Assembly (NCBI GenBank): GCA_017452325.1
Contig: JAFTMR010000013.1
Span: 1 to 38,707 of the forward strand
Source of the DNA: Phascolarctobacterium sp.
GTDB lineage: Bacteria; Bacillota; Negativicutes; Acidaminococcales; Acidaminococcaceae
Direction: 5' to 3'
DNA: 38,707 nt
Shown: in pieces, positions 6,058-31,329 of the stretch
How positions within the stretch are numbered: position 1 is the stretch's first letter
Layout: each line of letters starts with the position of its first letter
The notes under the pieces: generated by a model
Database searches by the model: none
Told to the model about the DNA's origin: nothing
What the model saw: only the letters and a program-made list of their open reading frames with translations
Position numbers and translations under genes: made by a program

Positions 6058-6088
6058 ATTATAAACTATATACCGCCTATATGCTCAA
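6058..6088 (-). promoter_or_regulatory. MerR-type promoter (19-bp spacer) for chlI-chlD-tonB1
   Basis: On the minus strand: -35 TTGAGC, spacer ATATAGGCGGTATATAGTT (19 bp), -10 TATAAT. The spacer holds an ATATA...TATAT dyad. Nine other promoters in the window share this layout, and the expected start site falls about 45 bp before the chlI-like ATG. Confidence 0.85.
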
Positions 6089-6111: not shown

Positions 6112-6151
6112 AAAAAGCTAACAGGAAGTTTTAATTTCCTGTTAGCTTTTT
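6112..6151 (-). terminator. Rho-independent terminator of the nif-like/cobN operon
   Basis: A perfect 16-bp stem (AAAAAGCTAACAGGAA / TTCCTGTTAGCTTTTT) with an 8-nt loop. On the minus strand it begins inside the last codons of the radical SAM gene and ends with a U run. It separates the long operon from the chlI-like promoter. Confidence 0.9.
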
Positions 6152-7177
6152 TATGGTTACTCTTTTCATGGCGCACTCACTCTTGTAAGCGACACACTCC
6201 CCACTGCCATACCAACGAGCGAAGCAGCCACCGCCACAGAGTTTGAAATCAGCGCACTCCTTGCAAAAGTGCATACTCTCTGAAATTTTCCGGCTTATCT
6301 TTTCTACAAGGGCAATGTCCAACCCGTCCTGCACATTGCCAATATAAAAATTAGCATCCCCCAGAAGGGAGGAGCAAGCGTAAATTTTACCGCTGGCATC
6401 TACAAAGGCAGCCTCACCGTTCATAGCATAGCAATGTCCAAACTGGCGACAGCTTTCCTTGCACAAAAACTTTGCCCTTTCCAGCTGGGAAATTTGAATT
6501 TTATAGCCTGCCATCCGGGCAAGCAGTTCCCCTCTGGCGTAAACCTCTTCCATTGCTTTATGCATCTGTGCTTCCGTTGGAGGAGTAAGCCCCCTGCCAC
6601 GCCCCTGCCCTCGCAATAAATCGAAGCCTATTTTACGCACGCACCCAACAAAATAGCCCATCTCCACAATGCCGGCAAGCTCTTCAACATTTTCTGCAGT
6701 GACCACGCAGGTCAAGCCACAGCCAATATTGTTACGCCTTAAAACTTCCAAGCCTTGCAAGATTAAACCAGTTGCCCCTTTGCCTTCCTTGGTCAAACGC
6801 AGTTTATCGTTTATATTGGGTTTGCCGTCAAGGCTTATGCCAATGGCTACCTTATTTTTAAAAAGGTACTTGGCAATTTCATCAGTCAGGAGGGAGGCGT
6901 TGGTCTGAATCTGTAAAATTGCAGGCAACTGTTCAGCTTGAACATAGTCCACCACCGCCTGCAGGGTTGCAAAATTTAGAAGTGGCTCGCCCCCGCTGAA
7001 CTGGATGATAAATTTTTCACCTTGGGGCAGGCTGCCCACCGCCAAGCGGACGGCGGCAAGGGCAGTTTCCTCAGACATTTTTTGTGTATTATGTTCTGCG
7101 GCGTAGCAGTAACGACAGGCAAAATTACATTGCCCCGTTAAGCTTAGCACCAAGTTTTTTATTTTAGGAGTTGGCAT
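6131..7177 (-). CDS. Radical SAM/SPASM protein
   Basis: 348 residues, last gene of the nif-like/cobN operon. The ATG at 7177 follows GAGGAG and overlaps the end of the CobN-like gene by 14 bp; the longer upstream frame is shadow. The radical SAM motif is CNFACRYC (C17, C21, C24), with FSGGEP at 60-65 and an ISLDG strand at 114-118. The C-terminal half has ten further cysteines (C239, C243, C249, C268, C305, C308, C314, C318, C328, C335) in the spacing of a SPASM domain, which holds two auxiliary [4Fe-4S] clusters. SPASM enzymes usually modify peptides or proteins (anaerobic sulfatase maturases, PqqE-like, thioether formers); a few act on small molecules. Here it could modify a partner protein of the system or the tetrapyrrole itself. 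The substrate cannot be read from the sequence. Confidence 0.9.
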   Translation of the reverse strand: MPTPKIKNLVLSLTGQCNFACRYCYAAEHNTQKMSEETALAAVRLAVGSLPQGEKFIIQFSGGEPLLNFATLQAVVDYVQAEQLPAILQIQTNASLLTDEIAKYLFKNKVAIGISLDGKPNINDKLRLTKEGKGATGLILQGLEVLRRNNIGCGLTCVVTAENVEELAGIVEMGYFVGCVRKIGFDLLRGQGRGRGLTPPTEAQMHKAMEEVYARGELLARMAGYKIQISQLERAKFLCKESCRQFGHCYAMNGEAAFVDASGKIYACSSLLGDANFYIGNVQDGLDIALVEKISRKISESMHFCKECADFKLCGGGCFARWYGSGECVAYKSECAMKRVTIKKLTGN

Positions 7178-10100
7178 CACTGCGCTCCTCAATCTCCCCT
7201 TCAATTGAAAGGTATAATTTTTGCAGCTCGCTCTTGGTTTCCGGCTTAGCGTTCCACAAACCACGCTGTTCTGCTTCCAAGAGGACTTCCGCCATTCTTT
7301 GCAATGCCCAAGGATTCACATCACGCAGCCATTCCTGCACCTTGGGGTCAAAGGTATATTTTTCTGCGTACTTTTCGTACATCCAATCTTCCATAACGGC
7401 GCTGGTTGCGTCCCATTGATAGCTGTGAGCAATCATATTCGCCATATCCGCCGCGCCCTTGTAGCCATGCTTCATCATACCCTCAATGTATTTGGGGTTA
7501 ATGGATTCACTGCGGAAGATACGCTTCGCCTGCTCCTGCACGCTAAACATCTTAACCTTACTTCTATCGGTACTGTCACCACAGTAGGAACGGGGCGCAC
7601 TACCTTTGATGCTGCGCACCGCCGCAATCATACCGCCATGATAAGCGTTGTAGTCGTCACTGGAAAGCATATTGGTTTCGTGGTTGTCTTCATTTTTAAT
7701 GGTAACATCCAGGCTACCCATCCGCTTGCGGAATTGTTGGGGCAAGAACTTGCCCTTAGTCTTGCCGCCGTAAGCGTGACCGCCCCAACGGACGTAAACA
7801 TCGGCGATATCGTCAATGGTTTCCCAGTTCTTAGCTTCAAGGAGAGCGGCAACGCCTGCGCCGTACACGCCCTGCTCGTCACCAAAAATTCTAAAGGCAG
7901 CTTGTCGCCAAGCTTCTTCCTTGGTCATACCCTCCGCTTCCAGCTCAGCGCTATCTGCCAGGATATGCTTACGCACATAGTTTAGCTCCACATCCTCATC
8001 CAAGCTACCGGCAAGGAGTGTTGCTTGGTCCAGCAGTTCCATAACCGTAGGCATGGTATCGCGGAACAAACCACTAATGCGTGCCGTAACGTCAATGCGG
8101 GGACGGCGCAGTTCATTCAAGGGAATGGGCTCCAAGCTGTTGACACGCATACTGCCAGCTTGATACACAGGGCGAATCCCCATCAGATAGAGGAACTCTG
8201 CAATACACTGACCATGACTGCGCATATTGGCACCGCTCCACAAAACGATACCGATATTTTCCGGATAGTGACCTTCTTCCGCAATGAAGCGCTCAATAAC
8301 CTGGTCACCCAAGGTTTTGCCAATCTCCCACGCCGCCGGAGTAGGCAGGGTACGCGGGTCAACGCCATAGAAGTTGCGACCTGTAGGCAGTAAATCTGCA
8401 CAGCCACTGGTGGGCGCACCGGAAGGCCCTGGTTCCACATACTGACCTTCAAAACCACGCAGCATGTTCTCCTGCTCTTGAGTAGTCAGCATCAAATTAG
8501 GATAAATACTTTCGCAGATGTAGGTGCAAACCTTGGTCAAGGCTTCCTTAAACTCTTCGTTCCCCTCCTGCACCCAAGGCAATGCCAAAACTTGGGACAG
8601 AGCTTCCCCGCCAAAGTCCTTACCTTGCAAAATGGTAATAATCTCTTGGCTCTGCTCCGTAATTTTATCAAGAAGCGCCGCATTGGTAATGTTCAGCGGT
8701 TCGTAGATAAGACTGCTGTTTTCCAACAGGTAGTAATAATCATAGCCGTAGTAATGGGCAATGGCTTGGCTTAGGCTGGGCACGTCACCATTGTTCAGAC
8801 GGGTAAGCATCCACAAATATTCCGTCAAGCCCTCATCAACAGGAGGTTGTCCCAAAATATGTAAACCTGTATGTACCTCAAGGTTCTTCAGATCCGTAAT
8901 GTAGTTGTGCAGTGCCAGCACATATTCGCCAAAGGGCTTACCTTCTTCATAGGGAACCTCGTCCTGCAAATTGGCAGCCGCAACCTTTTCCTTAACCAAG
9001 GCTTCCAAATTGGGCAGGTTCTCCGGCTGGGTAACTTCAAAGTGGACGTATTCATCCATAATCTTTTCCAGTTCTTCCAGCTCGTCGTACACCCCTGCCT
9101 TACTTTGAGGAGCAGGCAAATGCTCGATTAAGCAGGCAGCACCCCTGCGTTTTGCCTGGATACCTTCGCCGGTAATCGTAATATTATAAGGATAGATATT
9201 AACCAAATCACCTAACGCCAAGTCTGGATAGCAAGTGCAGTCCAAGCCTGCGTTCTTACCCGGCAACCATTCCAAGGAGCCATGGGTACCGATATGGGCA
9301 ACTGCATCCGCCTGCCAAATGTCGCGCACCCAATGATAGAAGCCCAAGTAATGATGGGTGGGCGCACAATAAGGAGAATGGTAAATTTTGCTAGGGTCAT
9401 CACCAAAGCCGCGGGGCGGTTGTACGGTGACAAAAACATTACCGTTCATAGTTCCCGGTACCAAAAGGTCGCCGTCATATTCCATAACGCTACCCGGTGC
9501 TTCGCCCCAGTCCTTGATAAGCTGCGCCTGTACCTTGGGAGCAAAGGTAGCAAAGAATTTTTGATACTCTGCTCCCGTAACCTTATTGGCTTCTGCAATT
9601 TGCTTTTCTGTCAGTAAATTCTTATCGTTGGTTGCGTTGGCAGTAAGCTCCTTGATAAATTCCTTAGTGTCCGCAGGAATGGCATCCACCTTGTAGCCAC
9701 GCTCCTGCATCGCCGCCAAAACTCTTCTGATACTTTCGATGGTGTCCAAGCCAATGGCACTACCAATATTGGAATTGCGAGGAGGATAGTTGTGGAAGAT
9801 GATGGCAATTTTTTTATCAGCATTTGCCTTGCGACGCAGGCTCGCCCATTTGCGTGCTTTGCTTACCATTCTTTGAACACGCTCCATGATGGGCAGATAG
9901 CGCACGTCCCCATTTTCCAGAACCTTTTTGTAGCCGATGGGTACCCCATGAATGGTACCGTCAAACTCCGGCAGGGAAACAGCAATGGAAACTTCCATGG
10001 GATTCATCCCCTCAAAGCTTTCCCGCCATTCTTCCAGCTCCGTCATAATTGTATAGCCTGCCAAAATGGGTACGTTCCATTTTTTGAAGTAGTCCACCGT

Positions 10101-10883
10101 AATCGTACCGCTACTACTCAAAGAAAACTTCATTACATTGATAAGGGCATCAATGGCAGCCACGCCATCCTTGCAAAAAAAGCGGTTGAACACTTCCGTC
10201 AAGCTGGGCATCCCCATTTCCTCAACGGGCATACCATTACTGAAAACACAGACGGCGTTCATACCCTGAGCTTCAATCTCTTCAACAGTTGCGCCTTGGT
10301 AGGTTAAATCTCCCCATACCCATTCGTCCCTGTAAAAAAGCATACCGATTGTCGGTTTGGCAGGGTCACAGAAATCAGCTTGGTATTCTGCCAAATCAGT
10401 ATAAACCTTTTGGGCACGAGGATGGTAAATGCCACACCAATGAATCGGGTCGGGAGCTTCCACGTCAGCGCCAACACCTTGCAGGCAGCCGTCCACATAC
10501 TGCCACAAATTATAGTAGTTACGCTCACCGCCAAAGGAGGAATACTGTTTTAAGGTTGCCAGCTGCTCCGGAGAAAAGCCGTATTTAAGCTCCCCCTCAT
10601 TAGTTCCGGCAGCGTCTATATAATAAGGAATCTTTTTGTCGTCTAAAAACTTTACTAAATTTTTCAGAAAGGGAGTATCCAGACCACTTCCCATCCATTT
10701 CAGAAGCACCACGTCCGTAGTGGTTAAGGTTTCCACCCATTTCTTATCCCATTGGGTTTGGTCCGTAATCCAATGGCAGGCGCAAGCAGAGCTTAGCTTC
10801 TGCTCTCGTTGCAAGCGTTCCACCGTTTGCTGCATCATCCCCATACGACGGATGACATTGGTTAAAAATAAAATCTTACTCAT
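7164..10883 (-). CDS. CobN-like large chelatase subunit
   Basis: 1239 residues, the usual size of the CobN/BchH large subunit that binds the tetrapyrrole. Recognisable family segments are GGERNYYNLWQYV (about residue 138), the signature HIGTHGSLEWLPGK near the middle with nearby THHYLGFYHWVRDIW, and the C-terminal block around NPWALQRMAEVLLEAEQRG. Homologues insert cobalt into hydrogenobyrinic acid diamide (CobN) or Mg into protoporphyrin (ChlH); HmuS of Bacteroidetes, a CobN-type protein, is linked to removal of iron from haem. Direction and metal are therefore open here. It lies between a FecCD-type permease and a radical SAM gene in an operon with nitrogenase-like genes, and its AAA+ partners are in the next operon, so imported rather than home-made tetrapyrrole is the more natural substrate. 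The start follows GAGGTAGAG. Confidence 0.93.
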   Translation of the reverse strand: MSKILFLTNVIRRMGMMQQTVERLQREQKLSSACACHWITDQTQWDKKWVETLTTTDVVLLKWMGSGLDTPFLKNLVKFLDDKKIPYYIDAAGTNEGELKYGFSPEQLATLKQYSSFGGERNYYNLWQYVDGCLQGVGADVEAPDPIHWCGIYHPRAQKVYTDLAEYQADFCDPAKPTIGMLFYRDEWVWGDLTYQGATVEEIEAQGMNAVCVFSNGMPVEEMGMPSLTEVFNRFFCKDGVAAIDALINVMKFSLSSSGTITVDYFKKWNVPILAGYTIMTELEEWRESFEGMNPMEVSIAVSLPEFDGTIHGVPIGYKKVLENGDVRYLPIMERVQRMVSKARKWASLRRKANADKKIAIIFHNYPPRNSNIGSAIGLDTIESIRRVLAAMQERGYKVDAIPADTKEFIKELTANATNDKNLLTEKQIAEANKVTGAEYQKFFATFAPKVQAQLIKDWGEAPGSVMEYDGDLLVPGTMNGNVFVTVQPPRGFGDDPSKIYHSPYCAPTHHYLGFYHWVRDIWQADAVAHIGTHGSLEWLPGKNAGLDCTCYPDLALGDLVNIYPYNITITGEGIQAKRRGAACLIEHLPAPQSKAGVYDELEELEKIMDEYVHFEVTQPENLPNLEALVKEKVAAANLQDEVPYEEGKPFGEYVLALHNYITDLKNLEVHTGLHILGQPPVDEGLTEYLWMLTRLNNGDVPSLSQAIAHYYGYDYYYLLENSSLIYEPLNITNAALLDKITEQSQEIITILQGKDFGGEALSQVLALPWVQEGNEEFKEALTKVCTYICESIYPNLMLTTQEQENMLRGFEGQYVEPGPSGAPTSGCADLLPTGRNFYGVDPRTLPTPAAWEIGKTLGDQVIERFIAEEGHYPENIGIVLWSGANMRSHGQCIAEFLYLMGIRPVYQAGSMRVNSLEPIPLNELRRPRIDVTARISGLFRDTMPTVMELLDQATLLAGSLDEDVELNYVRKHILADSAELEAEGMTKEEAWRQAAFRIFGDEQGVYGAGVAALLEAKNWETIDDIADVYVRWGGHAYGGKTKGKFLPQQFRKRMGSLDVTIKNEDNHETNMLSSDDYNAYHGGMIAAVRSIKGSAPRSYCGDSTDRSKVKMFSVQEQAKRIFRSESINPKYIEGMMKHGYKGAADMANMIAHSYQWDATSAVMEDWMYEKYAEKYTFDPKVQEWLRDVNPWALQRMAEVLLEAEQRGLWNAKPETKSELQKLYLSIEGEIEERSDANS

Positions 10884-16379: not shown

Positions 16380-16410
16380 ATTTTAAACTATATAGCGATT
16401 ATATAGTCAA
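16380..16410 (-). promoter_or_regulatory. MerR-type promoter (19-bp spacer) for the nif-like/cobN operon
   Basis: On the minus strand: -35 TTGACT, spacer ATATAATCGCTATATAGTT (19 bp), -10 TAAAAT. The dyad CTATATA...TATATAG is clearest here: AACTATATA and TATATAGTC are near mirror halves around GCGAT. It lies between the divergent MerR gene and the NifH-like gene, the classic place for a MerR operator. Confidence 0.88.
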
Positions 16411-16427: not shown

Positions 16428-17276
16428 ATGTCCTACAAGGATTCCAAGGATAGCTACTTTACGGCAGGCGAGTTAGCTAATCTATTTGGTATTTCTAAGC
16501 AAACCTTACTGTACTATGACAAAATTGACCTACTCTCACCGGATTTTGTTTGTGAAAAAGGCTACAGGCATTACTCCATCCAGCAGTATCTGGATTTGGA
16601 AATTATTGTTAATCTACGCTCCTTCAATATCAGTATTGCCGATATCAAAGCCTATTTGACCAAGCGTAGCAAAAATGATTTTATGAACCTCGTTACGCAA
16701 AAGAAGCAGGAATGTATGAAGGTCATTAAAGAAAATGAGGCCATCATAAAATCCCTAAACGTAATTTACAACAACGCCAAAACGGAAAAGCCCTATGTCT
16801 TTAACAAGCCACTGCTCACCTTTCAGGAAGAACGCTTGCTGAGAGTGACAAAGGTGTCTGAAAAAGATGACGGCAAGGACAGAATAATCCTCTTCACCCG
16901 CCACGCCCAAACTGCTTTCCACAGCAAAAAGTCTCTGGAAAAGCACATGGGCTGGATAATTTCTCAGGAAGACCTTTTCGTTGAGAAAAATTCCCATCCC
17001 ACCAAGGCTTACTTTTCCTTCGTCCCCAATACTCCTGGGCATAAGAGCAAATCAAAAATTGAAGTGCTGCCTGCAGGACTGTTTCTGGAAATTTACTTTA
17101 AGGGAACCTATTACGAAAACTTTTCTAGCCTGGTAGACATTATCAATAACTTTATGGAGCTCAATGAGCTGGAAGCAGTGGGCGATATTTACATCCTCAC
17201 CATCGAAAACCATCTGTTCTACACCAACACTGACGATTACACCAACAAAATCTTCCTCGCAGTCAAAAAGAAATAA
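16428..17276 (+). CDS. MerR-family activator with GyrI-like effector domain
   Basis: 282 residues. I prefer the ATG at 16428 (AGAGGTGGG eight bases upstream) over a GTG at 16416. The N-terminus is a MerR winged helix: YFTAGELANLFGISKQTLLYYDKIDLL, then GYRHYSIQQYLDLEIIVNLR. A dimerisation helix follows (about 80-115), then a C-terminal domain of about 150 residues of the GyrI/BmrR effector type ending in an IYILTIENH-type strand. BmrR-class regulators bind flat hydrophobic ligands in this domain, which suits a tetrapyrrole. There is no cysteine-based metal site as in CueR or ZntR. It is the only MerR gene in the window and stands divergent to one of ten 19-bp-spacer promoters, so it is the obvious candidate for their activator. 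This link is inference. Confidence 0.88.
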   Translation: MSYKDSKDSYFTAGELANLFGISKQTLLYYDKIDLLSPDFVCEKGYRHYSIQQYLDLEIIVNLRSFNISIADIKAYLTKRSKNDFMNLVTQKKQECMKVIKENEAIIKSLNVIYNNAKTEKPYVFNKPLLTFQEERLLRVTKVSEKDDGKDRIILFTRHAQTAFHSKKSLEKHMGWIISQEDLFVEKNSHPTKAYFSFVPNTPGHKSKSKIEVLPAGLFLEIYFKGTYYENFSSLVDIINNFMELNELEAVGDIYILTIENHLFYTNTDDYTNKIFLAVKKK

Positions 17277-17279
17277 GAA

Positions 17280-17318
17280 AAGGCTCAAAGCGCTGTTCAT
17301 CAGTTAGCTTTGAGCCTT
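17280..17318. terminator. Bidirectional terminator between merR-like gene and His-rich protein gene
   Basis: Inverted repeat AAGGCTCAAAGC / GCTTTGAGCCTT (12-bp stem, 15-nt loop) lies between the convergent ends of the regulator (17276) and the small protein gene (17325), with A/T runs on both sides. Confidence 0.8.
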
Positions 17319-17324
17319 AATTCT

Positions 17325-17642
17325 TTATTGGTGGCAATGACCGGAAGTGTTGCCGCTTCTTACTTTTTCAAAGATTGCGTGAGCTTCGTCAACGCTTTTG
17401 CCGTTAGCGAGAGCCTTTTGCATATGAATCATTGCGCTACGATATTTAGCGTGAGCTTCATCCTTGGGGATGGCGTCAATATTCTTCGGGTCGAACTCCA
17501 TAACTTTTTTGAAGATGGCATGGATTTCTTCAGAAGATTTGCCGGCAGCTTTAGCTGCTTCCACATGCTTCATTGCGCTTTCATAGCGATACTTAGCGTG
17601 GGGATCGTTGGGAAGTTCGTACTTGGGATGGGTACAGGTCAT
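17325..17642 (-). CDS. 105-residue His-rich duplicated helical protein, unknown function
   Basis: I do not recognise the family. The ATG at 17642 follows GAGAGGTGAATGTT. The protein has no signal peptide and no membrane segment, so it should be cytoplasmic and mostly helical. It is an internal duplication: residues 15-47 and 64-94 share the pattern HAKYR..(2)..AM.H....A...GKS..E.HAIF.KV. It has nine histidines (5, 15, 26, 41, 64, 73, 88, 102, 104), with a Cys-His pair at each end (MTCTHP and GHCHQ). Six His occupy equivalent positions in the two repeats. A metal- or tetrapyrrole-binding carrier, or a substrate of the radical SAM/SPASM enzyme, are both possible. It has a private promoter of the regulon at 17676-17706 and a terminator, so it may be made in large amounts. 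Confidence 0.85.
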   Translation of the reverse strand: MTCTHPKYELPNDPHAKYRYESAMKHVEAAKAAGKSSEEIHAIFKKVMEFDPKNIDAIPKDEAHAKYRSAMIHMQKALANGKSVDEAHAIFEKVRSGNTSGHCHQ

Positions 17643-17675
17643 AACATTCACCTCTCTTCTAATTTGGTAAAACCT

Positions 17676-17706
17676 ACTATACACTATATTCTAATCATAT
17701 AGTCAA
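17676..17706 (-). promoter_or_regulatory. MerR-type promoter (19-bp spacer) for the His-rich protein
   Basis: On the minus strand: -35 TTGACT, spacer ATATGATTAGAATATAGTG (19 bp), -10 TATAGT. The -35 hexamer contains the TGA stop codon of the upstream lipoprotein gene. Confidence 0.82.
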
Positions 17707-18731
17707 GGGAATTTTTCAGGATAAACAGCCTTCGCCATATCCTCCACTCCCAAAACGAAATGTTGGGAGCAGGTAAGAAGATGAGCGGAGGGAATGGTAA
17801 TCACGCTTCGGTTCTTGCCTGCCTTGGTTATCATGTAGGATTGGTTGGACAAAAGCTCTTGCTTTAACTTTTCAGGACTATGCTTTCCGTCAAAGTTCCA
17901 GTCGCCAATGACGAAGCTGTCCGGATTAAGCTTCACAATAATTTCTTGGGACAGGTTGCAAGCTTGGGAATAATTCAAATCTTCCGTAGCGTCCTGCACA
18001 AAAGCTTGGCGACAGGTATCGCGGAAGGTTCCTTCCGGAGAATAGTAGGCACCAATGGCGCTGATGAAAAGAACTCTGCGTTTTTCCTTGATGCCTGCCA
18101 ATTTTTCCTGCACCTTTTTAACGCGAGCGTTCATCTCCGCTACAAGCTGCTCTCCCCGTTCAGGCTCGCCCACCACCTGGGCAAGCTCCAAGATGGAATT
18201 CTGAATCTCCTTCATATTGGAAGGAGTCTTGTAAACGTAAACGGTCATCCCCATATCCCGCAGGGTTTGGTAGCTTTCGGGAGGGAAGAAGTCAGAAATA
18301 AGCACCAAGTCCGGATTCAGACCCAGCACACTTTCAGGAGAACTACCATGAGTGCGATTGGGAATGTTCTTCACCCGCTCCACGATATTAGAAATTCCCC
18401 CATCATCTGCCAAATAGGTAACGCTCAAGATTCGCTCCATAGGTACCAAATCCAAAAGAATCTCGTCCGTCCCGATGGACATGGACACAATCCGCTGAGG
18501 CTTGCCGGCAAAATCCATCTTCTTGCCGGTAATATCCGTAACGCTGTAACCACTGCCTTCCTTTTGCACAGCAGCACTTTCCTTTTCACCACAGCCTCCG
18601 CAAAGTAAAAGCCCTAGGCAAATTAAAAGCACTAACAAAAATCTGGAAGCTCCTAAAAAATTCTTAACATCTATTTTGGAAGCAACACCCAAAATTTTGC
18701 CCCCGTTATTTTTATTCAAACTCTTTCGCAC
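17703..18731 (-). CDS. BtuF/FepB-type substrate-binding lipoprotein B
   Basis: 342 residues from a GTG at 18731, chosen because GAAGGGG lies nine bases upstream; the frame stays open to a TTG at 18773, but that part runs through a parS site and lacks a ribosome site. A lipoprotein signal ends at LLLCGGC. The body is a class III binding protein with RIVSMSIGTDEILLDLVPMERIL, LNPDLVLISDFFPPE and NPDSFVIGDWNFDG. It is a paralogue of lipoprotein A in the nif-like operon, yet it has its own regulated promoter and no adjacent permease. It may feed the same permease with a second ligand. No terminator follows it, so read-through into the His-rich protein gene is likely. Confidence 0.9.
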   Translation of the reverse strand: MRKSLNKNNGGKILGVASKIDVKNFLGASRFLLVLLICLGLLLCGGCGEKESAAVQKEGSGYSVTDITGKKMDFAGKPQRIVSMSIGTDEILLDLVPMERILSVTYLADDGGISNIVERVKNIPNRTHGSSPESVLGLNPDLVLISDFFPPESYQTLRDMGMTVYVYKTPSNMKEIQNSILELAQVVGEPERGEQLVAEMNARVKKVQEKLAGIKEKRRVLFISAIGAYYSPEGTFRDTCRQAFVQDATEDLNYSQACNLSQEIIVKLNPDSFVIGDWNFDGKHSPEKLKQELLSNQSYMITKAGKNRSVITIPSAHLLTCSQHFVLGVEDMAKAVYPEKFP

Positions 18732-18756
18732 AAGACCAACCCCTTCAAAAAGAAAA

Positions 18757-18772
18757 TGTTTCACGTGAAACA
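18757..18772. promoter_or_regulatory. parS site 1
   Basis: A perfect 16-bp palindrome TGTTTCACGTGAAACA, the consensus ParB-binding parS sequence found around bacterial origins. It lies in the 5' leader of lipoprotein B, between its promoter and GTG start. Confidence 0.9.
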
Positions 18773-18809
18773 ATGAGCAATTCGCTAAAGGAAATAGCTT
18801 TCATTTAAA

Positions 18810-20283: not shown

Positions 20284-22188
20284 TTAGAAGGAGTATTCAG
20301 CACCAACGAAGAATGCACGACCAGGCATTGCGTAATATTCTCCAGGTAGTCCATATTTAACATTAGACTCATTTGCATAAAATTTGTCAAACAAATTATT
20401 CACTTTAAAATAGAATTTATGATTTATATCTGGCTTATAATTTAATCCCAAGTCTATAATCCAATAATTGTCACACGGGAAATTCTTACCATTGGTTGTT
20501 TCATAACCCGGCTTATCAAATATACCATTAGCAGTTAAATTAGCATTAAATTTTTTCAGATTGTACCCTAAACTAATATCTACCATATGCTTCGGTATAT
20601 ATCCAAAGTTATTTACAACCTTTTGTCCACCATTTCCACTTTCCGTTTTCGTATAGGTATATGCAATAGAAGTATCCCATTTATCACTAAGTTTTTTCTT
20701 AAATTGAATATCAAAACCTTTTGCATCTTCTTCATCTTCTAGGTTATCATACTTATTTATTGCATAATTAAAAACTACTTTATCCTTTGTTTCGCGTTTG
20801 AAAATATGAGTTCTCATTGTAAAAGTATCATCAAATTTATGATTCAGACCAAATTCAACGGTTTCTCCACTTTCTGGATTCAGGCTGGAATCACCATACT
20901 CACTATTAAAAAGGGCATAAGTAGTAGGAGTATTAAAGAAAGTTCCGTAAGACACATAAACATTAGTATCATCATTAAATTTGTAGCCTACTTTACCATT
21001 ACCAGTAAATTCACTATCAAATCTGTCATTATTATCATAACGAGCACCCAAAGTAATATTTATTTTATCAGTAAATTCATGATAGTCTTGTAAATAAAAA
21101 CCAGTATTTCTTATCTTCTGACCATTCCCATTTGTATATCCAGCTCCCCAACTACTACCATCGAAACCTTCATTAAACTTATCTTCTTGATAATCAATAC
21201 CGCCTGTTAATGTATTATTATCACCAATATTCTTAGTTAATTGTTCATTCACAGAAATAGAAACAATATTAGTATCTCCCCAAGAGGGGTGTAATAATCT
21301 TTCATTTCTTGCCAAAGTTAATTTGTTTGTTAATGAATCATCAAAATTATAGTCAAAGGTTAGTCTATAACTTTCTAATTCATATGTACCTTCGTTAAGC
21401 CCTCCACCATAGGATGGAATATCATAATAAGAATACTCTGATTTAAATTTATCATATGCTAAGCTAACATTACCTTTATCACCGTTGTCCCCTAATTTAC
21501 GAGAAACCATCATGCTAATATTTCTAGAATCATTTGATTGCCTAATTTCTTCACCATTACCAGCTTCAGCATCACCAATCTTATCTTTACTAAATGCTAA
21601 TCTATAACTCCAATCTTTCTCGGTACCTTGAGTACTAATACCCATTCTAGTCTTGCTAAAATCACCACCCTCAATAAATAATTTGGTTTTATTTTCAGGT
21701 GTAGATTTAGTAATCACATTAATAACGCCGCCTTGAGCATCTGCACCATAAAGAGAAGAAGCAGAACCATGCAATACTTCAATGCGTTCAACATTATCCA
21801 TATCGTTAAGAAGCTCATATAAATTGGGCTCTGCCCCTTGATTCATACGGACACCATCAACCATAAACAGCACTTTATCCGAACCATTGATAACTATTTT
21901 GTTTTGAGTTGTATAACCAGCTCTACCATAATCACGTATTTGAACGCCAGGTACATCTTCCAAGGCTTCTTTTACATTTTGATAGTGTCTGTTTTCAATT
22001 TCTTCCTTTGTTACAACGCTAATATTAGCATTGGCATTGAACAGTTCAACCGGTGTTCTTGTCGCAGTTACTACATACTCGTCCAGAGTAAAGGTATCCA
22101 ATTTACTTGCGTGTACTGGTGTACCCCCCCATTGCACAGAACCGAGGATAAGCGCCGTTATAAGCATTGCTTTAGTCATCTTTTTCAT
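20284..22188 (-). CDS. TonB-dependent outer-membrane receptor 2 (BtuB-like)
   Basis: 634 residues from the ATG at 22188, preceded by TTTTAGGAGATGAAGTT. The signal peptide (MKKMTKAMLITALIL...VHA) is followed by the TonB-box region FTLDEYVVTATRTPVE. A plug domain has VKEALEDVPGVQIRDYG, KVLFMVDGVRMNQG, RIEVLHGSASSLYGADAQGG in part and VINVITK. The C-terminal barrel ends in FFVGAEYSF. The YVVTATRTP and VPGVQ text and the compact size resemble BtuB-type vitamin B12 receptors more than the other two receptors here, but the ligand is not proven. It has its own regulated promoter at 22330-22360 and a leader of about 135 nt in which I see no known riboswitch. The proposed partners are the FecCD permease and the two BtuF-like lipoproteins. 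Confidence 0.92.
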   Translation of the reverse strand: MKKMTKAMLITALILGSVQWGGTPVHASKLDTFTLDEYVVTATRTPVELFNANANISVVTKEEIENRHYQNVKEALEDVPGVQIRDYGRAGYTTQNKIVINGSDKVLFMVDGVRMNQGAEPNLYELLNDMDNVERIEVLHGSASSLYGADAQGGVINVITKSTPENKTKLFIEGGDFSKTRMGISTQGTEKDWSYRLAFSKDKIGDAEAGNGEEIRQSNDSRNISMMVSRKLGDNGDKGNVSLAYDKFKSEYSYYDIPSYGGGLNEGTYELESYRLTFDYNFDDSLTNKLTLARNERLLHPSWGDTNIVSISVNEQLTKNIGDNNTLTGGIDYQEDKFNEGFDGSSWGAGYTNGNGQKIRNTGFYLQDYHEFTDKINITLGARYDNNDRFDSEFTGNGKVGYKFNDDTNVYVSYGTFFNTPTTYALFNSEYGDSSLNPESGETVEFGLNHKFDDTFTMRTHIFKRETKDKVVFNYAINKYDNLEDEEDAKGFDIQFKKKLSDKWDTSIAYTYTKTESGNGGQKVVNNFGYIPKHMVDISLGYNLKKFNANLTANGIFDKPGYETTNGKNFPCDNYWIIDLGLNYKPDINHKFYFKVNNLFDKFYANESNVKYGLPGEYYAMPGRAFFVGAEYSF

Positions 22189-22329
22189 AACTTCATCTCC
22201 TAAAATTTTATTGAACTTTTTTCCATTAAGTGAACTTAAAAGCCTACCGCCCAATCTTGCATGGCCGCAGTAAATTTGTGAGAGTGAAGTTACCAAGCTT
22301 AAATAAAAAGTTCTTTTCCTACGCTCAAC

Positions 22330-22360
22330 ATTATAGTGCATATAGTAGTTTTACAGTCAA
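22330..22360 (-). promoter_or_regulatory. MerR-type promoter (19-bp spacer) for TonB receptor 2
   Basis: On the minus strand: -35 TTGACT, spacer GTAAAACTACTATATGCAC (19 bp), -10 TATAAT. Both hexamers are near consensus, yet the spacing is 2 bp too long for unaided sigma-70 use. Confidence 0.87.
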
Positions 22361-23413: not shown

Positions 23414-24499
23414 TTAAACAGCTTGGTCAGCTACAATTTTATTGAACAGAGCCTTCCAGCTCGCCAACATTCCCTCAAGATTTGCTTGGGTAATTTGCTC
23501 GTTTCCTACATTATAATAGGTAGCTAATGTATCAAGCAAGCTTTGTCCTGCTAGCTGCATTTCTTCCTCACTGATAAGCTGCCACAAAAATTGATCCAAC
23601 AGGTGAATATACAAGGAAGTGTAGGTGAGCATTGCCTTGTCCTTTGCCAAAGCTTCTGCTGCGAGTAGGTACACAGGCTTCACTTCCGCCTTGGTGCTGG
23701 CTTGGTATTCTGCCCACATACCTCCTGGCAAAATTCCAAAGCGTTTTAAACGGCGGAACACATTGTGCTGAAAGTCAGCGTTCAAGCCTGCCTGCTTTTC
23801 CAGTGCCCGCTTCACCGCTTTAGTAACAACCTTGCCGATCAGCTCGCCAATCTTGGAATGCTTGCCAGTGCTTTCAAAATACAAGCTGCTTTGGGGATTT
23901 GCTACGATAATGGTCTGGTCCGTACCGCTTCCCGTCGCTAAGCCAGTAGAGTAATTGCTACCGGCAAGCAGTTCCTGAATGGCAGCAGTCTTCGCTTCGG
24001 TACAGGTTACCAGCGCGCGAGCCAATGCTCCCGGCGGCATATCGCAGTCCAAAACCAGCATAATGTTAATAGTACCGCACTTGTCCAAACGCTCCATAGG
24101 TTTGTAATAATCGGAAGGGTCACCTACGCGCCCACCATTAGTTTCGATACCGCCTGTTACGATGGCAGTAACGGTCAGCTCCCTGTAGGTAAGCTTTTCC
24201 ACAACGGCGTTTTCCATACTGGCAGCAGTCCCCATGCCCGTAACAAGGTCCGGGTTCAGGGCAAGACGCTTGGAAATCAAACGCATATGCTCCACGTAAG
24301 TATCTGCCAAAACCTCGCAGGGCATACCGGAGCCTTGTTTGGCATCATAGTTATAAACCGCAAGGTAATTCTCGTGGTAGCCACCGTTGTAGACGGAGGT
24401 ACTCAACACCTTACGCTTATCATTAAAGAAAATCACAATACTTTTATCATAAAAATATACCTTATCCCCTGTAGACAGGGTGCAAATTTGTTCAGCCAT
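23414..24499 (-). CDS. CbiZ-like adenosylcobinamide amidohydrolase with C-terminal extension
   Basis: 361 residues from the ATG at 24499 (GAGGAGAAGGGT upstream). The CbiZ domain occupies roughly residues 1-235: GMGTAASMENAVV, TGGIETNGGRVGDP, GTINIMLVLDCDMP, TCTEAKTAAIQEL and TGLATGSGTDQTIIV are the usual conserved blocks. CbiZ cleaves the amide bond between the corrin ring and the aminopropanol arm, turning adenosylcobinamide or pseudo-B12 into adenosylcobyric acid for remodelling. About 120 further residues follow, helical by appearance, which I do not recognise and which ordinary CbiZ proteins lack. The gene has its own regulated promoter. It is the best hint that the imported ring is a corrinoid, but the extension and the unusual partners allow a different amide substrate. 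Confidence 0.85.
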   Translation of the reverse strand: MAEQICTLSTGDKVYFYDKSIVIFFNDKRKVLSTSVYNGGYHENYLAVYNYDAKQGSGMPCEVLADTYVEHMRLISKRLALNPDLVTGMGTAASMENAVVEKLTYRELTVTAIVTGGIETNGGRVGDPSDYYKPMERLDKCGTINIMLVLDCDMPPGALARALVTCTEAKTAAIQELLAGSNYSTGLATGSGTDQTIIVANPQSSLYFESTGKHSKIGELIGKVVTKAVKRALEKQAGLNADFQHNVFRRLKRFGILPGGMWAEYQASTKAEVKPVYLLAAEALAKDKAMLTYTSLYIHLLDQFLWQLISEEEMQLAGQSLLDTLATYYNVGNEQITQANLEGMLASWKALFNKIVADQAV

Positions 24500-24526
24500 A
24501 CCCTTCTCCTCAAACATTTTCTTTTA

Positions 24527-24557
24527 ATTTTAAAGTGTATAGCTGTTGTACGGTCAA
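24527..24557 (-). promoter_or_regulatory. MerR-type promoter (19-bp spacer) for the cbiZ-like operon
   Basis: On the minus strand: -35 TTGACC, spacer GTACAACAGCTATACACTT (19 bp), -10 TAAAAT. It resembles most closely the promoter of lipoprotein B. Confidence 0.82.
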
Positions 24558-24590: not shown

Positions 24591-24624
24591 AAAATAGGCG
24601 TAGCCAAAAGCCACGCCTATTTTT
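24591..24624 (-). terminator. Terminator of the P1B ATPase gene
   Basis: Stem AAAATAGGCGTaGC / GCcACGCCTATTTT with a 5-nt loop immediately after the ATPase stop codon, followed on the minus strand by a short AT-rich tract. Confidence 0.75.
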
Positions 24625-26876
24625 TAAAACTTCTTGTATAAAATTCTAATGGAGTTCAGCACGCACAGCATTGCCACGCCCGTATCAGCAAAGACCGCCG
24701 CCCACATGGAAGCGTAGCCCAAAAGACCAGCCACCATAATTACGGCCTTCACCCCCAAAGCAAAGCCTACATTTTGCCAAGCAATACGCGTAGTTTCTTT
24801 AGCAAGAGCAATGGCCTTGGGTATGGACGTCATCTCTGAATTCATAAAGACAACGTCCGCCGCCTCAATGGCAGCGTCAGCACCGCTCCCCATGGCAGCA
24901 CCCACGTTAGCACCTGCCAGAACAGGCGCGTCGTTGATGCCGTCGCCTACAAACATTACAGGGCCGTACTTATCACGCAGGCGGTTAAGCTCCTGCAATT
25001 TTTCTTGGGGCAAAAGCTTCGCCCGCACTTCGTCAATACCTGCCTCTTTCGCAATGGCTTCTGCCTCGCGCTTAGAGTCCCCGGTGAGCATGGCAGTAAC
25101 CAGGCCCTGAGCTTTAAGCATTGCTACCGCAGCCTTGGCATCCTCTTTCAGGGTATCATTAATCACAAGCTGACCAAGGTATTTAAAATTTTTGGCAACC
25201 AAAACTTCACTGCCGCTTTCCACTTCCCTGTAATCTTCAAGACTTACACCAAAGCGTTCCAAAAGCTTAGTATTACCGCAGAGCACAACATCCTCTCCAT
25301 AATAGGCAACCAAGCCTTCACCGGCGAGTTCTTCAAATTTATCGGGACGTACCAAATGCAAGCCACGTTCCTGCGCCGCATCCACAACGCTTACTGCAAT
25401 GGGATGGGTGGAAACCTGCTCAGCTCCTGCGCAAATTTGCAGGAGCGCTTGTTCAGTCACTCCTTTGGCAACGCGCAGCTTCTGTAAAACAAAATTCCCC
25501 TTGGTTACAGTACCGGTCTTGTCCAAAACTACAGCAGCAATTTTCCTCAATCCTTCAATGGCAACGCCACCCTTAAACAAAATGCCATACTTGGAGCCGG
25601 CGCCAATGCCGGAGAAGAATGCCAAGGGTACACTCAAAACCAGGGCGCAGGGGCAGCTGATAACAAGGAAGGTCAAAGCCGCATAAATCCATTTTTCCCA
25701 GTCCCCCGTTACAAGGGAGGGAACAATCGCCGTCAGGATGGCAGCAGCAACCACGCAGGGAGTATATACGCGGGAGAAACGGGTAATAAATTTTTCTACA
25801 GTCGGCTTGCTAGCCGCAGCGTTTTCCACGCTGTCAAGAATCTTTGTCACCATGGATTCTTCCAGTACTTTTTCCACACGCATAGTCAGCATGGCAGAGG
25901 TGTTCACGCAACCGGAAACCACTTCGTCCCCACGCACACGCTTTACCGGAACAGGCTCGCCGGTTACAGGAGAAGTATCAAGCAGGCTTTCGCCATCAAC
26001 TACAACGCCGTCCAAAGGAATGCGGTCGCCAACACGCACCAACAGTACGTCGCCAACCTTGGCATCTGCTGCAGGAATCACTTTCACTTCGTTATCCACC
26101 AGCAAGTTGACAACTTCGGGACGCATATCCACCGCCGCCATAATTTGCCCACGACTTTTTTCTACGGCACGCTCCTCAAAATATTCGCCCACCCGATAGA
26201 AGAACATAACGCCAACAGCTTCCTCCCAGGCTTGGATGGCGAAGGCGCCCAAGGTTGCTACGGTCATTAAAAAGTTTTCGTCAAAAACTTTACCTTTAGC
26301 AATATTCTTCACCGCCGCCAACACAATGCGTCCACCCAAAAGCAGGTAAGCAAAGATTAAAGCGTATAGATGATAAGCTTCGGGAACAACACCCAGCCAT
26401 TCCGTAGCGATAAAGATAATACCGCCAACTACTATTTCCAAAAGTGCCTGCTTGTTATTAGAGGAAGCTTCTGCTTGAGCAGCCTTCTCCTTCGCAACAA
26501 GCGCCTCCCTGTCGCCGCCTTCTTCCAGCACTACGCCGTCCTCTATCTTATCGCAAATAGCTTGCATTTTTTCTAGTAAGCCTTTGTAATCTTTGGCAGT
26601 TACTTTAAGCTTTTTGGTTGTAAAAGTTAGGGTTGCCGCTTCCACTTCTGGCAGCTCGTTCAAGGCACGCTCAATTTTAGCACCGCAGTTAGCGCAATCT
26701 AAATTTTTCACAAGGTAAACCTTAAAGTTCTTTCCCTTGTGTTCTTTCTCTTCGTGCTCGTGGTGGTAATGCTCTTCGTGGTGATGGTCATGTCCGCCAC
26801 AGCAGCCACCTTCGTGATGATGATGCTTATGTTCCTCATGGCAATGTTCATGAGGATTTTTAACAACTTCCTTCAT
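24624..26876 (-). CDS. P1B-type heavy-metal ATPase (Zn/Cd/Pb class)
   Basis: 750 residues, inner membrane, ATP-driven metal export. The N-terminus is a His/Cys-rich tail (residues 9-46), followed by one HMA domain with C61-A-N-C64. Next come the membrane segments, TGEP (305-308), the ion-site motif CPC (408-410), the phosphorylation site DKTGT (452-456) and GDGIND. The last membrane segments contain a lysine and FADTGVAML, the K...DTG pattern of ZntA-like Zn/Cd/Pb pumps. It lacks the 19-bp-spacer promoter of its neighbours and instead has two ArsR/SmtB-like inverted repeats upstream. So it is probably a separate metal-resistance unit, although a pump would also help if the chelatase released metal. 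Confidence 0.95.
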   Translation of the reverse strand: MKEVVKNPHEHCHEEHKHHHHEGGCCGGHDHHHEEHYHHEHEEKEHKGKNFKVYLVKNLDCANCGAKIERALNELPEVEAATLTFTTKKLKVTAKDYKGLLEKMQAICDKIEDGVVLEEGGDREALVAKEKAAQAEASSNNKQALLEIVVGGIIFIATEWLGVVPEAYHLYALIFAYLLLGGRIVLAAVKNIAKGKVFDENFLMTVATLGAFAIQAWEEAVGVMFFYRVGEYFEERAVEKSRGQIMAAVDMRPEVVNLLVDNEVKVIPAADAKVGDVLLVRVGDRIPLDGVVVDGESLLDTSPVTGEPVPVKRVRGDEVVSGCVNTSAMLTMRVEKVLEESMVTKILDSVENAAASKPTVEKFITRFSRVYTPCVVAAAILTAIVPSLVTGDWEKWIYAALTFLVISCPCALVLSVPLAFFSGIGAGSKYGILFKGGVAIEGLRKIAAVVLDKTGTVTKGNFVLQKLRVAKGVTEQALLQICAGAEQVSTHPIAVSVVDAAQERGLHLVRPDKFEELAGEGLVAYYGEDVVLCGNTKLLERFGVSLEDYREVESGSEVLVAKNFKYLGQLVINDTLKEDAKAAVAMLKAQGLVTAMLTGDSKREAEAIAKEAGIDEVRAKLLPQEKLQELNRLRDKYGPVMFVGDGINDAPVLAGANVGAAMGSGADAAIEAADVVFMNSEMTSIPKAIALAKETTRIAWQNVGFALGVKAVIMVAGLLGYASMWAAVFADTGVAMLCVLNSIRILYKKF

Positions 26877-27112: not shown

Positions 27113-29101
27113 CTAGAAAAGATACTCATACCCTAGCATAAAGTTACGTCCTAAATTATAGTAATTGCTGTTACCGGTAGATACAATATCTCTTCTGTCC
27201 AAGATGTTGTTAATGTGTAAAAACACCTTGTGGTTTTCCTCGGGCTGGTAGGAAAAATGCCAATCCGTAAATAACTGGGGCTTTATGTGGCGCTGCTCCT
27301 TGGTATCAGATGTTCTGTCCCCTACAAAATTTGCCTTTATGGTACTGCTGAACTTGGCATCCACATAGCTAAGAGCACCATTAAACTGATACCTGCTACC
27401 ATAATCATGCCAAGCTTTGTCGCCATAGCCCTTAGGATTATTGTCCCTCGCTTGAGGATTATGATAGGTTACTCCCCAACGGCTTGTCCAATTATTGTTG
27501 TGAGCAAGAGTCAGGGCAACTTCTATCCCCGTATTGCGCACGTCCTTATTAAAATAATCATAGCCTATGCCACTGGCAGACTCTACTGCTTCAACGGAGT
27601 CCTTCACCTCGTAATTAAAAAGAGCAATACGCCAAGCACTCTTCTCCGCGTTCAGCTTGTAACCTATTTCGTAGTGAGTCCCTTCTTCCGGCTTCAAGTC
27701 CAAAGCAGGACGCAGCACACCACTGCCATAAATCTGGCTCATGGTTGGCAGCTTAAAGGATTTACCCGCCTTGGCATAAACACTGCTCTCCTCATTGATA
27801 CGGTAAATATATTCTGCTTCTGGCGTGAACTTACTTAAATCATCATTCTTGGTAAAGTGCTGTGTACCGTTAAGCACTTCCCTTTGCCTGCCTTCATTCT
27901 TAGTAACCCAGGTCTCGCGCATATTCAGAATAAAATTGCTCTGCTCACCCAATGCCATGTCGTAAGAAAGAAAAATAGAATAGTTATCCCTACGCAAATT
28001 ACTATCCACTTCGGGGCTAGAAGACTTCAAAGCACTGTGAGTATCCATGTCCTCTTTCTGATAGCTTACCCCCACCAGCAGCTTGTCCTTGCCAATGTCA
28101 AACTGTTTCTGTAATTTTAAATTGGTGTTATGACCTTTGCGCCAGTTGTAATTTTCAGTGTAGGTTCTTTCTCCACTATTCTTAATATCCACCTGGTCAT
28201 TATCCTTCTCCTGAGTTCCATAAGAAATAAATGCCTGCCAACCATTCTTGTCGTAGTTCAGCAAAAAGCTATTATCTATGTTGGTGTACTGATTCATACG
28301 GTTATAAGTATTAAGAGCAGCCTTCCTACGCAAATATTTATTTTCATTTTCCGAATAGGCGTGGGTAAAGGTCAGGCCATCGCTTAACAAATAGTTCCAA
28401 CGTATACTTTGACGCTCTCCCTTGCCATAGTCATAAACATTTTCTGTCTCAGGCTCATCCCCCGGAGCAAGGCCTTTGATGTCATCCGCCTTGCCTCTAT
28501 TTTCCAAGCCGGCAAGTAAATTAAATTTACCTGCACCCACGCTGATGTCGTAACGCTCCTTGCCGTAATTACCCGCTGCAACCTTAATCCTGTTGCGCAG
28601 CTGCTTCTTGGTGATAATGTTAATGACACCGCCAGTAGCTTCACTGCCGTACAAAACAGAGCCGCCACCCTTCACTACTTCAATACGCTCGATGGCATCA
28701 CTGGGAATATCATCCAAATTATAACGCCCGTCCATATTCATAGGCACGCCATCCACCAGAACTAAGGTGCCATCCTGCACGCCACGAATCATAATTTTAG
28801 ATGTCATAGTCCCCTGATTGGTTCCGTTAAAGCCGTAGGAAGAAGCAGTAACCCCTAGAGTATCCTGCAATACATCGTAAGCATTGTTGGCACCACTGTC
28901 TTCTATTTCTTTTTCGTTAAACACTTCCACTAAAGCAGGAGTATCCAAATCCTTAGTGGCAAAGCCTTGCGCAGTTACCACCATCGGGTCCAGAACAAAC
29001 TCCTGCAAATTCTCAGCGGCTAGCCCAATTTGCTGGTTACTCCAAAAATTACAACTTAGCACCGCCAGCATAAGCAAACTTTTTTTACCTTTCTCCTTCA
29101 T
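27113..29101 (-). CDS. TonB-dependent outer-membrane receptor 3
   Basis: 662 residues from the ATG at 29101, preceded by GGTGGTG; a TTG at 29122 is in frame but less likely. The signal peptide is followed by the TonB-box region FVLDPMVVTAQG. The plug has YDVLQDTLGVTASSYGF, IMIRGVQDGTLVLVDGVPMN, RIEVVKGGGSVLYGSEATGG in part and VINIITKK. The barrel ends in MLGYEYLF. The plug is closest to receptor 1 (shared LDPMVVTAQ, NAYDV, GTLV.VDG.PMN), so these two may take related ligands. It has its own promoter of the regulon at 29137-29167 and a terminator, making it a single-gene unit. The ligand is unknown. Confidence 0.92.
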   Translation of the reverse strand: MKEKGKKSLLMLAVLSCNFWSNQQIGLAAENLQEFVLDPMVVTAQGFATKDLDTPALVEVFNEKEIEDSGANNAYDVLQDTLGVTASSYGFNGTNQGTMTSKIMIRGVQDGTLVLVDGVPMNMDGRYNLDDIPSDAIERIEVVKGGGSVLYGSEATGGVINIITKKQLRNRIKVAAGNYGKERYDISVGAGKFNLLAGLENRGKADDIKGLAPGDEPETENVYDYGKGERQSIRWNYLLSDGLTFTHAYSENENKYLRRKAALNTYNRMNQYTNIDNSFLLNYDKNGWQAFISYGTQEKDNDQVDIKNSGERTYTENYNWRKGHNTNLKLQKQFDIGKDKLLVGVSYQKEDMDTHSALKSSSPEVDSNLRRDNYSIFLSYDMALGEQSNFILNMRETWVTKNEGRQREVLNGTQHFTKNDDLSKFTPEAEYIYRINEESSVYAKAGKSFKLPTMSQIYGSGVLRPALDLKPEEGTHYEIGYKLNAEKSAWRIALFNYEVKDSVEAVESASGIGYDYFNKDVRNTGIEVALTLAHNNNWTSRWGVTYHNPQARDNNPKGYGDKAWHDYGSRYQFNGALSYVDAKFSSTIKANFVGDRTSDTKEQRHIKPQLFTDWHFSYQPEENHKVFLHINNILDRRDIVSTGNSNYYNLGRNFMLGYEYLF

Positions 29102-29136
29102 GAACACACCACCGTAAATCAATTTATCAGAGTCAG

Positions 29137-29167
29137 ATTATAAAGCATATAGCTAGTATATACGCAA
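29137..29167 (-). promoter_or_regulatory. MerR-type promoter (19-bp spacer) for TonB receptor 3
   Basis: On the minus strand: -35 TTGCGT (the least canonical of the set), spacer ATATACTAGCTATATGCTT (19 bp), -10 TATAAT. Confidence 0.8.
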
Positions 29168-29246: not shown

Positions 29247-30014
29247 TTATCTTACACTACCAAAATATGTTCTTACCAATTGTTTGTACGCAGGAGTCTT
29301 ACGATATTTTTCCAGTTCTGCATCAAACTGCTCCAGCAGGGCGGTGTTCTCTTTATTAACTGCAATACCAATCCTATCCTCCACCAATACATTGTCGCCG
29401 GCAAAACGTACACTATCACTAAAACCATGAGCAAGCAAAAAGGCAACTGCCAGTTTAGAAGCTACCATGCAATCAGCCCTATCTTCCACCACAGCCTTAA
29501 TAGCTTCTTCGGTACTGTCAGTTACAACAATATTGCTAGCGTGGGTATGACCCATCACCCAATCAAAAGCGATACTGCCACTTTCCACAGCAACTCTCTT
29601 ATTTTTTAAAGATTCCACCTCATTGGGGAACTTGGTGCCAACGGGAAGCACAATAGTTAAGCCATCAGAGATATACGGCTTAGTAAAAGCAGCTTTCTCT
29701 TCACGCTCCGGTGTAATTGCCAAACCGGAGATTACCGCATCATATTCTTTAGCTTCCAGTCCATCCAGAAGTTTGGGGAAATCTACATTCACAAACTCTA
29801 CCTTGTCATAACCCAAGTTTTTGCCCAGCTCACGCATCAAATCAATATCAAAGCCGGTGTGAATCCCACTGTTAGGCTGAAAATACTCAAAAGGAGGAAA
29901 ATTGGCGGTAGTAGCTACTCGCAAAACCTTCTTTTCTGCATCCGTCTTGCTACCGCAACCGGCAAGCATCAGACTAAAAACTAAGCAACAGATTAATACT
30001 AACAACTTTTTCAT
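29247..30014 (-). CDS. Family-3 solute-binding lipoprotein (amino-acid ABC type)
   Basis: 255 residues from the ATG at 30014 (GGGGG eight bases upstream). A lipoprotein signal ends at LMLAGC. The body has the bacterial extracellular family-3 pattern: RVATTANFPPFEYF, GFDIDLMRELGKNLGY, YDAVISGLAITPEREEKAAFTKPY and a C-terminal YRKTPAYKQLVRTYFG. The family usually binds amino acids or small cationic or anionic compounds for a polar amino-acid transporter. Here there is no permease or ATPase next to it, and it carries a promoter of the same regulon at 30093-30123. It may therefore bind a product or accessory ligand of the system, such as a side-chain amine or a metal chelate. Function in this context is unknown. 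Confidence 0.88.
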   Translation of the reverse strand: MKKLLVLICCLVFSLMLAGCGSKTDAEKKVLRVATTANFPPFEYFQPNSGIHTGFDIDLMRELGKNLGYDKVEFVNVDFPKLLDGLEAKEYDAVISGLAITPEREEKAAFTKPYISDGLTIVLPVGTKFPNEVESLKNKRVAVESGSIAFDWVMGHTHASNIVVTDSTEEAIKAVVEDRADCMVASKLAVAFLLAHGFSDSVRFAGDNVLVEDRIGIAVNKENTALLEQFDAELEKYRKTPAYKQLVRTYFGSVR

Positions 30015-30092: not shown

Positions 30093-30123
30093 ATGATAGC
30101 CTATATAGTGACTTTACTGTCAA
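30093..30123 (-). promoter_or_regulatory. MerR-type promoter (19-bp spacer) for the family-3 binding protein
   Basis: On the minus strand: -35 TTGACA, spacer GTAAAGTCACTATATAGGC (19 bp), -10 TATCAT. It closely resembles the site at 31299-31329. Confidence 0.83.
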
Positions 30124-31298: not shown

Positions 31299-31329
31299 AT
31301 TCTAAGCCATATAGCGACTTTACTGTCAA
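31299..31329 (-). promoter_or_regulatory. MerR-type promoter (19-bp spacer) for the frameshifted small gene
   Basis: On the minus strand: -35 TTGACA, spacer GTAAAGTCGCTATATGGCT (19 bp), -10 TAGAAT. The spacer differs from the family-3 binding protein promoter at only four positions. Confidence 0.8.

Follow-up and report, generated by a model that had tools for sequence, protein, structure and literature searches.

A putative carrier for imported metallotetrapyrroles or their metal beside a BmrR-like regulator in Phascolarctobacterium

What does a small, histidine-bearing protein do in the middle of a locus that appears to take up and process metal-containing rings? The question is raised by a 38,707-nucleotide stretch of DNA from Phascolarctobacterium sp. 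(contig JAFTMR010000013.1; the whole stretch is called the window below), in which a 105-residue protein is encoded on the minus strand at 17325..17642. To our knowledge, bacterial heme chaperones are few, and the handling of intracellular free heme and corrinoids by anaerobes is poorly known. A small, soluble, sequence-distinct protein, combined with a rare operator and a BmrR-like sensor, offers an easy entry point: the protein is amenable to purification, and its ligand would show which molecule is handled by the unusual CobN, nitrogenase-like, and radical SAM cluster found in Negativicutes of the gut. Our best explanation, which is held tentatively, is that the protein is a putative cytoplasmic sink or carrier that would use His ligands to hold an imported metallotetrapyrrole or the metal released from it.

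The small gene and its repeated helical unit

The open reading frame, with its ATG at 17642 and its stop codon at 17325-17327, is a real, single-copy gene under strong purifying selection. Relative to three close homologues, 27-42 differences affect the third position of a codon and 5-7 the other two, with dN of 0.03-0.05 and dN/dS of ~0.02-0.08. The sequence places a ribosome-binding site, AGAGGTGA, 5 nt upstream of the ATG on the same strand (17648..17655). An antisense frame on the plus strand (17310-17702) was set aside because the substitutions follow minus-strand codons. A bidirectional intrinsic terminator (17279..17318, both strands, limits approximate) lies between the small gene and a convergent MerR gene; its stem is AAGGCTCAAAGC / GCTTTGAGCCTT, with an MFE of -23.2 kcal/mol and z = -5.5. 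A search of the window against Rfam returned no match. The protein sequence contains no signal peptide or hydrophobic stretch, and the product is thus probably cytoplasmic, in agreement with a preliminary description of this DNA.

That description also proposed that the protein consists of two copies of one helical unit, which both alignment and modeling bear out. Residues ~10-47 align to residues 58-94 with a BLOSUM62 local score of 95, whereas shuffling the second half 5000 times yielded a mean of 24.5 (sd 4.9) and a maximum of 48. The AlphaFold2 model, built from 15 homologues (mean pLDDT 80.5, pTM 0.56), consists of four helices that form two hairpins. Unit 1 spans residues 15-48 (17499..17600, minus strand), with helices at 16-32 and 37-48 and conserved residues H15, R19, Y20, H26, G34, K35, H41, and M48. 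Unit 2 spans residues 64-96 (17355..17453, minus strand), with helices at 62-79 and 84-96 and conserved residues H64, Y67, H73, G81, K82, and H88. Both units are delimited by the model, the self-alignment, and conservation. Crude ideal-hairpin geometry allows an H26-H41 separation anywhere within 7-14 Å.

The nine His residues, which make up 8.6% of the protein, are its most conserved residue class. Among 27 promoter-bearing two-unit homologues, H5, H15, H26, H41, H64, and H88 are found in 27 of 27 and H73 in 26 of 27, such that invariance reaches at least 96% for seven of nine His versus 22 of 96 other residues (Fisher p = 0.0016). The protein has two Cys residues, and the Cys-His pair reported earlier at each end is present in the window protein. 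The pairs, which had hinted at a modification or metal site, are not conserved among the same 27 homologues, in which C3 occurs in 41%, H102 in 67%, C103 in 78%, and H104 in 37%. Divergent paralogues that lack the operator (families f34 and f35-g102) have R or Q in place of H73 and A, S, or L in place of H88, which suggests that the second-unit His residues are kept where the regulon is. Such retention is what a ligand-binding role would predict, though it is no proof, and the conserved His residues make putative metal or tetrapyrrole binding plausible.

No natural relative of the small protein was found above cut-off in Pfam, NCBIfam, PADLOC, or PDB sequences. The family does resemble the core of AhpD/carboxymuconolactone decarboxylase (PF02627), a ~20-residue helix-turn-helix (HvxAAxxAGkSsEEI), and a PF02627-like pattern is matched in 15 of 15 members (best E 9.4e-7). 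The window protein itself scores 18.8 bits, below the Pfam gathering cut-off of 23. PF02627 enzymes carry a catalytic Cys, whereas the window protein has no CxxC before the His and no Cys at all at residues 4-102; helix 1 reads AKYRYESAMKHVEAAKA. The family profile matches de novo designed helical proteins better (4.4e-9) than it matches PF02627. An AhpD identity was rejected because of this stronger match and the missing catalytic Cys, and with the sub-cut-off score the likeness is best read as a helix-capping pattern. The designed helical repeat proteins (8cws, 8cwy, 5cwb) that match the profile share a helix-loop-helix pattern with the small protein, and since they are man-made, this likeness has no evolutionary meaning. 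Structure searches with the model gave a best Foldseek E of 1.1 and a best VIA Z of 4.6, the latter over one hairpin, and this absence of a match is no evidence of a new fold. The model is all-helical, and the protein has no HMA match.

Operator sites and the BmrR-like regulator

MerR-family activators act on promoters with a 19-bp spacer and a dyad between the hexamers. Upstream of the small gene, at 17676..17706 on the minus strand, lies a promoter/operator private to it, TTGACT-19 bp-TATAGT with the dyad ACTATAT...ATATAGT, whose sequence has the 19-20 bp spacer of a MerR-family target. It is overlapped by the end of the upstream gene (17703..18773, minus strand), which encodes a BtuF-like substrate-binding protein (Pfam Peripla_BP_2, 7.9e-26). 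The private promoter and terminator that had been described for the small gene are therefore both present. An operator pattern derived from the window sites and their relatives occurs eight times in the window, always on the minus strand, versus 0.01 expected, and 11 times in the 1.8-Mb genome, with 0 sites for a reversed-pattern control. A leave-one-out weight matrix scores the small-gene site at 20.8, whereas the highest score among 60 shuffles is 7.7. By weight matrix, a good site is found 55-147 nt upstream of ~29 of 48 distinct homologues from several families.

The other sites in the window precede a nifH-like gene (16380..16410, 0 mismatches), a ChlI-like gene (6058..6088, two mismatches), the TonB receptor gene at 20284-22341 (22330..22360, two mismatches), the CbiZ gene at 23414-24517 (24527..24557, three mismatches), the TonB receptor gene at 27113-29122 (29137..29167, three mismatches), the solute-binding protein gene at 29247-30020 (30093..30123, three mismatches), and the region 30672-30992 (31299..31329, three mismatches). 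The earlier proposal that the small gene belongs to the regulon, here one of tetrapyrrole uptake, is supported. The copies at 30093 and 31299 are nearly identical and, with a weaker one near 30609, lie within 1.3 kb. They surround a 106-aa ORF without a Pfam match, and the interval 30093-31329 looks like a duplicated promoter region.

Three sites outside the window are located near genes for TonB receptors and for BtuF-like, exported CbiK, nitrilase-like, and P-type-ATPase-like proteins, and one of them adjoins a second MerR paralogue. The CbiK cobaltochelatase (L100:4877-5881, minus strand, contig C103; PF06180, 3e-84) carries an apparent signal peptide and belongs to an operator-linked cluster of the window's genome. 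The second MerR paralogue (L101:3904-4764, minus strand, contig C46), which is 49% identical to the first, adjoins an operator-bearing TonB, nitrilase-like, and P-type-ATPase-like cluster; the ATPase-like protein beside it (L101:5123-10315, plus strand) lacks the DKTGT motif. Within the window, the minus strand at 24624-26876 encodes a P-type ATPase that has a CPC motif and an N-terminus rich in His and Cys (MKEVVKNPHEHCHEEHKHHHHEGGCCGG...).

Whole-genome pattern searches of eight other genomes found one to four operator sites in each, counts that are lower bounds on the regulon because the pattern misses more diverged sites. The small gene accounts for one of these sites in P. faecium, and the same holds for six of the seven other genomes searched. 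In S. ovata (5.4 Mb) and in genome G065 (3.5 Mb), the small-gene site is the only operator found; the strict S. ovata pattern derives from this very site, and the looser, relaxed pattern was chosen with several sites in view. On the counts from all these searches, the small gene appears to be the neighboring regulator's most constant target.

That regulator is encoded on the plus strand at 16428..17276, convergent with the small gene (Pfam MerR_1, 4.5e-11). Its AlphaFold2 model (pLDDT 86) matches full-length BmrR with a Foldseek E of 8e-16 and a Z of 16.6 over 268 residues, and it also matches rhodamine-, berberine-, and closthioamide-bound relatives. In the predicted model, a MerR helix-turn-helix is joined to a GyrI-like C-terminal ligand domain that groups with GyrI-like domains binding planar or aromatic molecules, and the protein is predicted not to be of the metal-thiol MerR type with a short Cys-bearing tail. 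The predicted fold suggests an organic, probably ring-shaped effector and would fit a planar aromatic one such as a tetrapyrrole. We infer both that the regulator acts at the operator sites and that a tetrapyrrole is its effector. The BmrR-like sensor appears to control genes for the uptake and processing of a heme- or vitamin B12-like metal-containing ring as well, and for this reason the small protein is probably a binder or buffer of the cargo. The operator-linked set, which comprises TonB receptors, BtuF-like, ChlI-like, NifH-like, CbiZ, exported CbiK, and P-type ATPase-like proteins, supports this assignment.

The nature of the sensor also bears on whether the small protein could be a general cytosolic buffer for divalent metals (Fe, Co, Ni, Zn, or Cu) that makes no contact with a tetrapyrrole. 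Cys-His tails are found in many members, P-type ATPases of the regulon have HMA or His-rich ends, and in one genus a single-unit gene lies between the MerR gene and a CPC-motif P-type ATPase gene, all as a metal buffer would lead one to expect. However, conservation within the protein is lowest in the tails, and the regulator is predicted to be BmrR-like rather than of the short metal-thiol CueR/CadR type. We consider a general metal buffer unlikely.

Distribution, neighboring genes and alternative roles

Of 380 Negativicutes genomes, 51 contain a homologue of the small protein, among them those of P. faecium and S. ovata; one degenerate match is left out of this count. A profile search of 398 genomes of the phylum, up to 384 of them outside the class Negativicutes, returned the window's own gene as the sole match, and plasmid and phage collections gave no match. 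The number of units varies: most homologues have two, some have one (55-62 aa, for example in genomes G113-114 and G353-358), and genome G323 has four with a 59-residue period. The four His units of G323 (C31:15184-15855), with Cys between them, follow in frame a LysR-type HTH (PF00126, 1.8e-20) within a 348-aa ORF (L068:10151-11197, minus strand), which may be a sensor fusion that occurs in nature or else a frame that happens to stay open upstream of an internal start. The divergent f34 and f35 relatives have housekeeping-gene surroundings and no operator. Diverged paralogues that lack the unit-2 His pair are situated between deoB-like and rpsT/polA genes at three loci away from the regulon (L067, L075, and L076).

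A CobN relative is present in 46 of the 51 genomes with the small gene versus 66 of the 329 without it; the associated Fisher p of ~1e-22, like the other co-occurrence p-values, overstates independence since the genomes are related. Homologues are thus not widespread in genomes lacking the rest of the system, as the carrier proposal had anticipated. CobN accompanies the gene in most genomes, with five lacking it at the cut-off, and a radical SAM enzyme does so in only 34 of the 51. In genomes G043, G046, G050, and G056, the CobN match is split into two adjacent segments, ~1-774 and 767-1236; a short insert separates them, and all of this lies in a single open frame. Counted over 46 distinct homologues, the genes within 11 kb include MerR at 23 loci, CobN at 23, BtuF at 21, TonB at 17, CbiZ at 16, NifDK-like at 14, and radical SAM at 11.

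Two observations would suit a feedback loop, in which the BmrR-like regulator induces the small protein and the latter in turn acts as its anti-activator or co-factor, either by sequestering the inducer or by direct binding. MerR is the commonest direct neighbor of the small gene (17 of 46 loci), and a two-gene module predicts just the sole operator target seen in S. ovata and G065. A MerR relative occurs in 35 of the 51 genomes with the small gene versus 8 of the 329 without it. However, the remaining 16 of the 51 have no such regulator at the cut-off, and the conserved His residues are distributed over the full length of the protein and not gathered in one sequence patch. The LysR-type HTH in frame with four units would also suit a regulatory partner, but it is found in one genome, and because an internal Met lies just ahead of the units it may be no fusion. 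These observations make a feedback partner rather improbable.

Helical-hairpin repeats are typical of protein-binding scaffolds, and the profile matches to designed repeat proteins would accord with a non-binding scaffold that joins chelatase or nitrogenase-like subunits and whose His residues are structural. Yet structural His is not obviously called for at the positions of H5, H15, and H64, which are in the N-terminal tail or at helix starts, and the gene is present in genomes without a nearby nitrogenase-like gene. Such a scaffold is improbable on balance.

The remaining proposal of the preliminary description, that the small protein is the substrate of the cluster's radical SAM/SPASM enzyme, is disfavored by the distribution of that enzyme, whose presence was called at E <= 1e-60. 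The window encodes CobN-like and PapB-like radical SAM/SPASM proteins (7164-10883 and 6131-7177), and in Negativicutes the enzyme almost never occurs without a CobN-like protein: CobN accompanies it in 64 of 66 genomes, so that a substrate associated with CobN or with the tetrapyrrole of CobN is more likely. At the same cut-off, no radical SAM relative was found in the six genomes with the single-unit MerR/P-type ATPase form. Although both genes share a regulon, the enzyme resembles PapB-type peptide maturases, and co-occurrence is above chance (34/51 vs 32/329), a substrate role is very improbable given that the enzyme is absent from 17 of the 51 small-protein genomes (7 of 37 for full two-unit proteins), that 32 of its 66 genomes lack the small protein (leaving 34/66), and that the latter is a folded helical repeat with invariant His residues, no conserved Cys, and nothing like the leader and variable core of a precursor.

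A putative carrier and its closest known systems

These considerations return us to a carrier of the imported cargo, for which the following sequence of events can be proposed. TonB receptors and BtuCDF-type transporters, judging by their families, would import a ring that resembles heme or a corrinoid. Either this ring or an aromatic product may bind the GyrI-like pocket of the adjacent regulator, and the ligand-bound regulator would then remodel the over-long 19-bp spacer, as the site architecture and predicted fold suggest, and turn transcription on. The small protein, made from its own promoter, would hold the ring or metal through the three conserved His residues of each unit together with H5. 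In doing so it may limit toxicity and pass the cargo to the CobN-like and nitrogenase-like enzymes or to the P-type ATPase. The number of units, of which one, two, and four occur, might set the number of binding sites.

Several points stand against the carrier. Dedicated Ni/Zn storage proteins have a His share well above the 8.6% found here, five genomes carry the small gene without CobN, the f34 and f35 relatives are found in a housekeeping context, and Glu replaces H15 in single-unit forms. A wider claim, which we regard as doubtful, is that the proteins form a Negativicutes-confined family of dedicated cytosolic chaperones for a tetrapyrrole or its derived metal, made of a His-bearing helical hairpin. 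The family would be the core target of a BmrR-type tetrapyrrole sensor, unit copy number would set its capacity, and in Sporomusa the small protein and the sensor would make up a two-gene module for tetrapyrrole tolerance that stands by itself. If a tetrapyrrole is bound, a new chaperone family would be defined; if a metal is bound, the harvested metal would be named. The small protein represents a new protein family, with a putative role of a known kind. A literature search returned no paper on it or its regulon, and papers on HmuS were the nearest.

By logic, the closest systems appear to be the CopZ/GolB-type chaperones under CueR/GolS. In CueR-CopZ and GolS-GolB, a MerR-type regulator that binds metal controls a small cytosolic metal chaperone, and CopZ and GolB have a ferredoxin-like HMA fold with CxxC. 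The window shares with them a MerR activator, a 19-bp spacer, a small cytoplasmic and here putative ligand-binding protein, and adjoining P-type ATPase and transport genes. Unlike CopZ and GolB, the window protein is predicted to be all-alpha, it has conserved His residues and no conserved Cys, and its sensor is BmrR-like; an HMA fold with MxCxxC is absent.

By pathway, the heme de-chelatase system of Bacteroidota appears closest. HmuS, the de-chelatase of the Hmu heme system, is a membrane-bound, NADH-dependent enzyme (PMC12583661), and the sections of that paper available to us describe no counterpart of the small protein, the sensor, or the operator. Both systems occur in gut anaerobes and combine TonB-type uptake with a CobN-superfamily protein for metallotetrapyrroles (PMC12583661). 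Beyond these shared features, the window contains ChlI/ChlD-like, nitrogenase-like, and radical SAM genes together with MerR control and the small protein.
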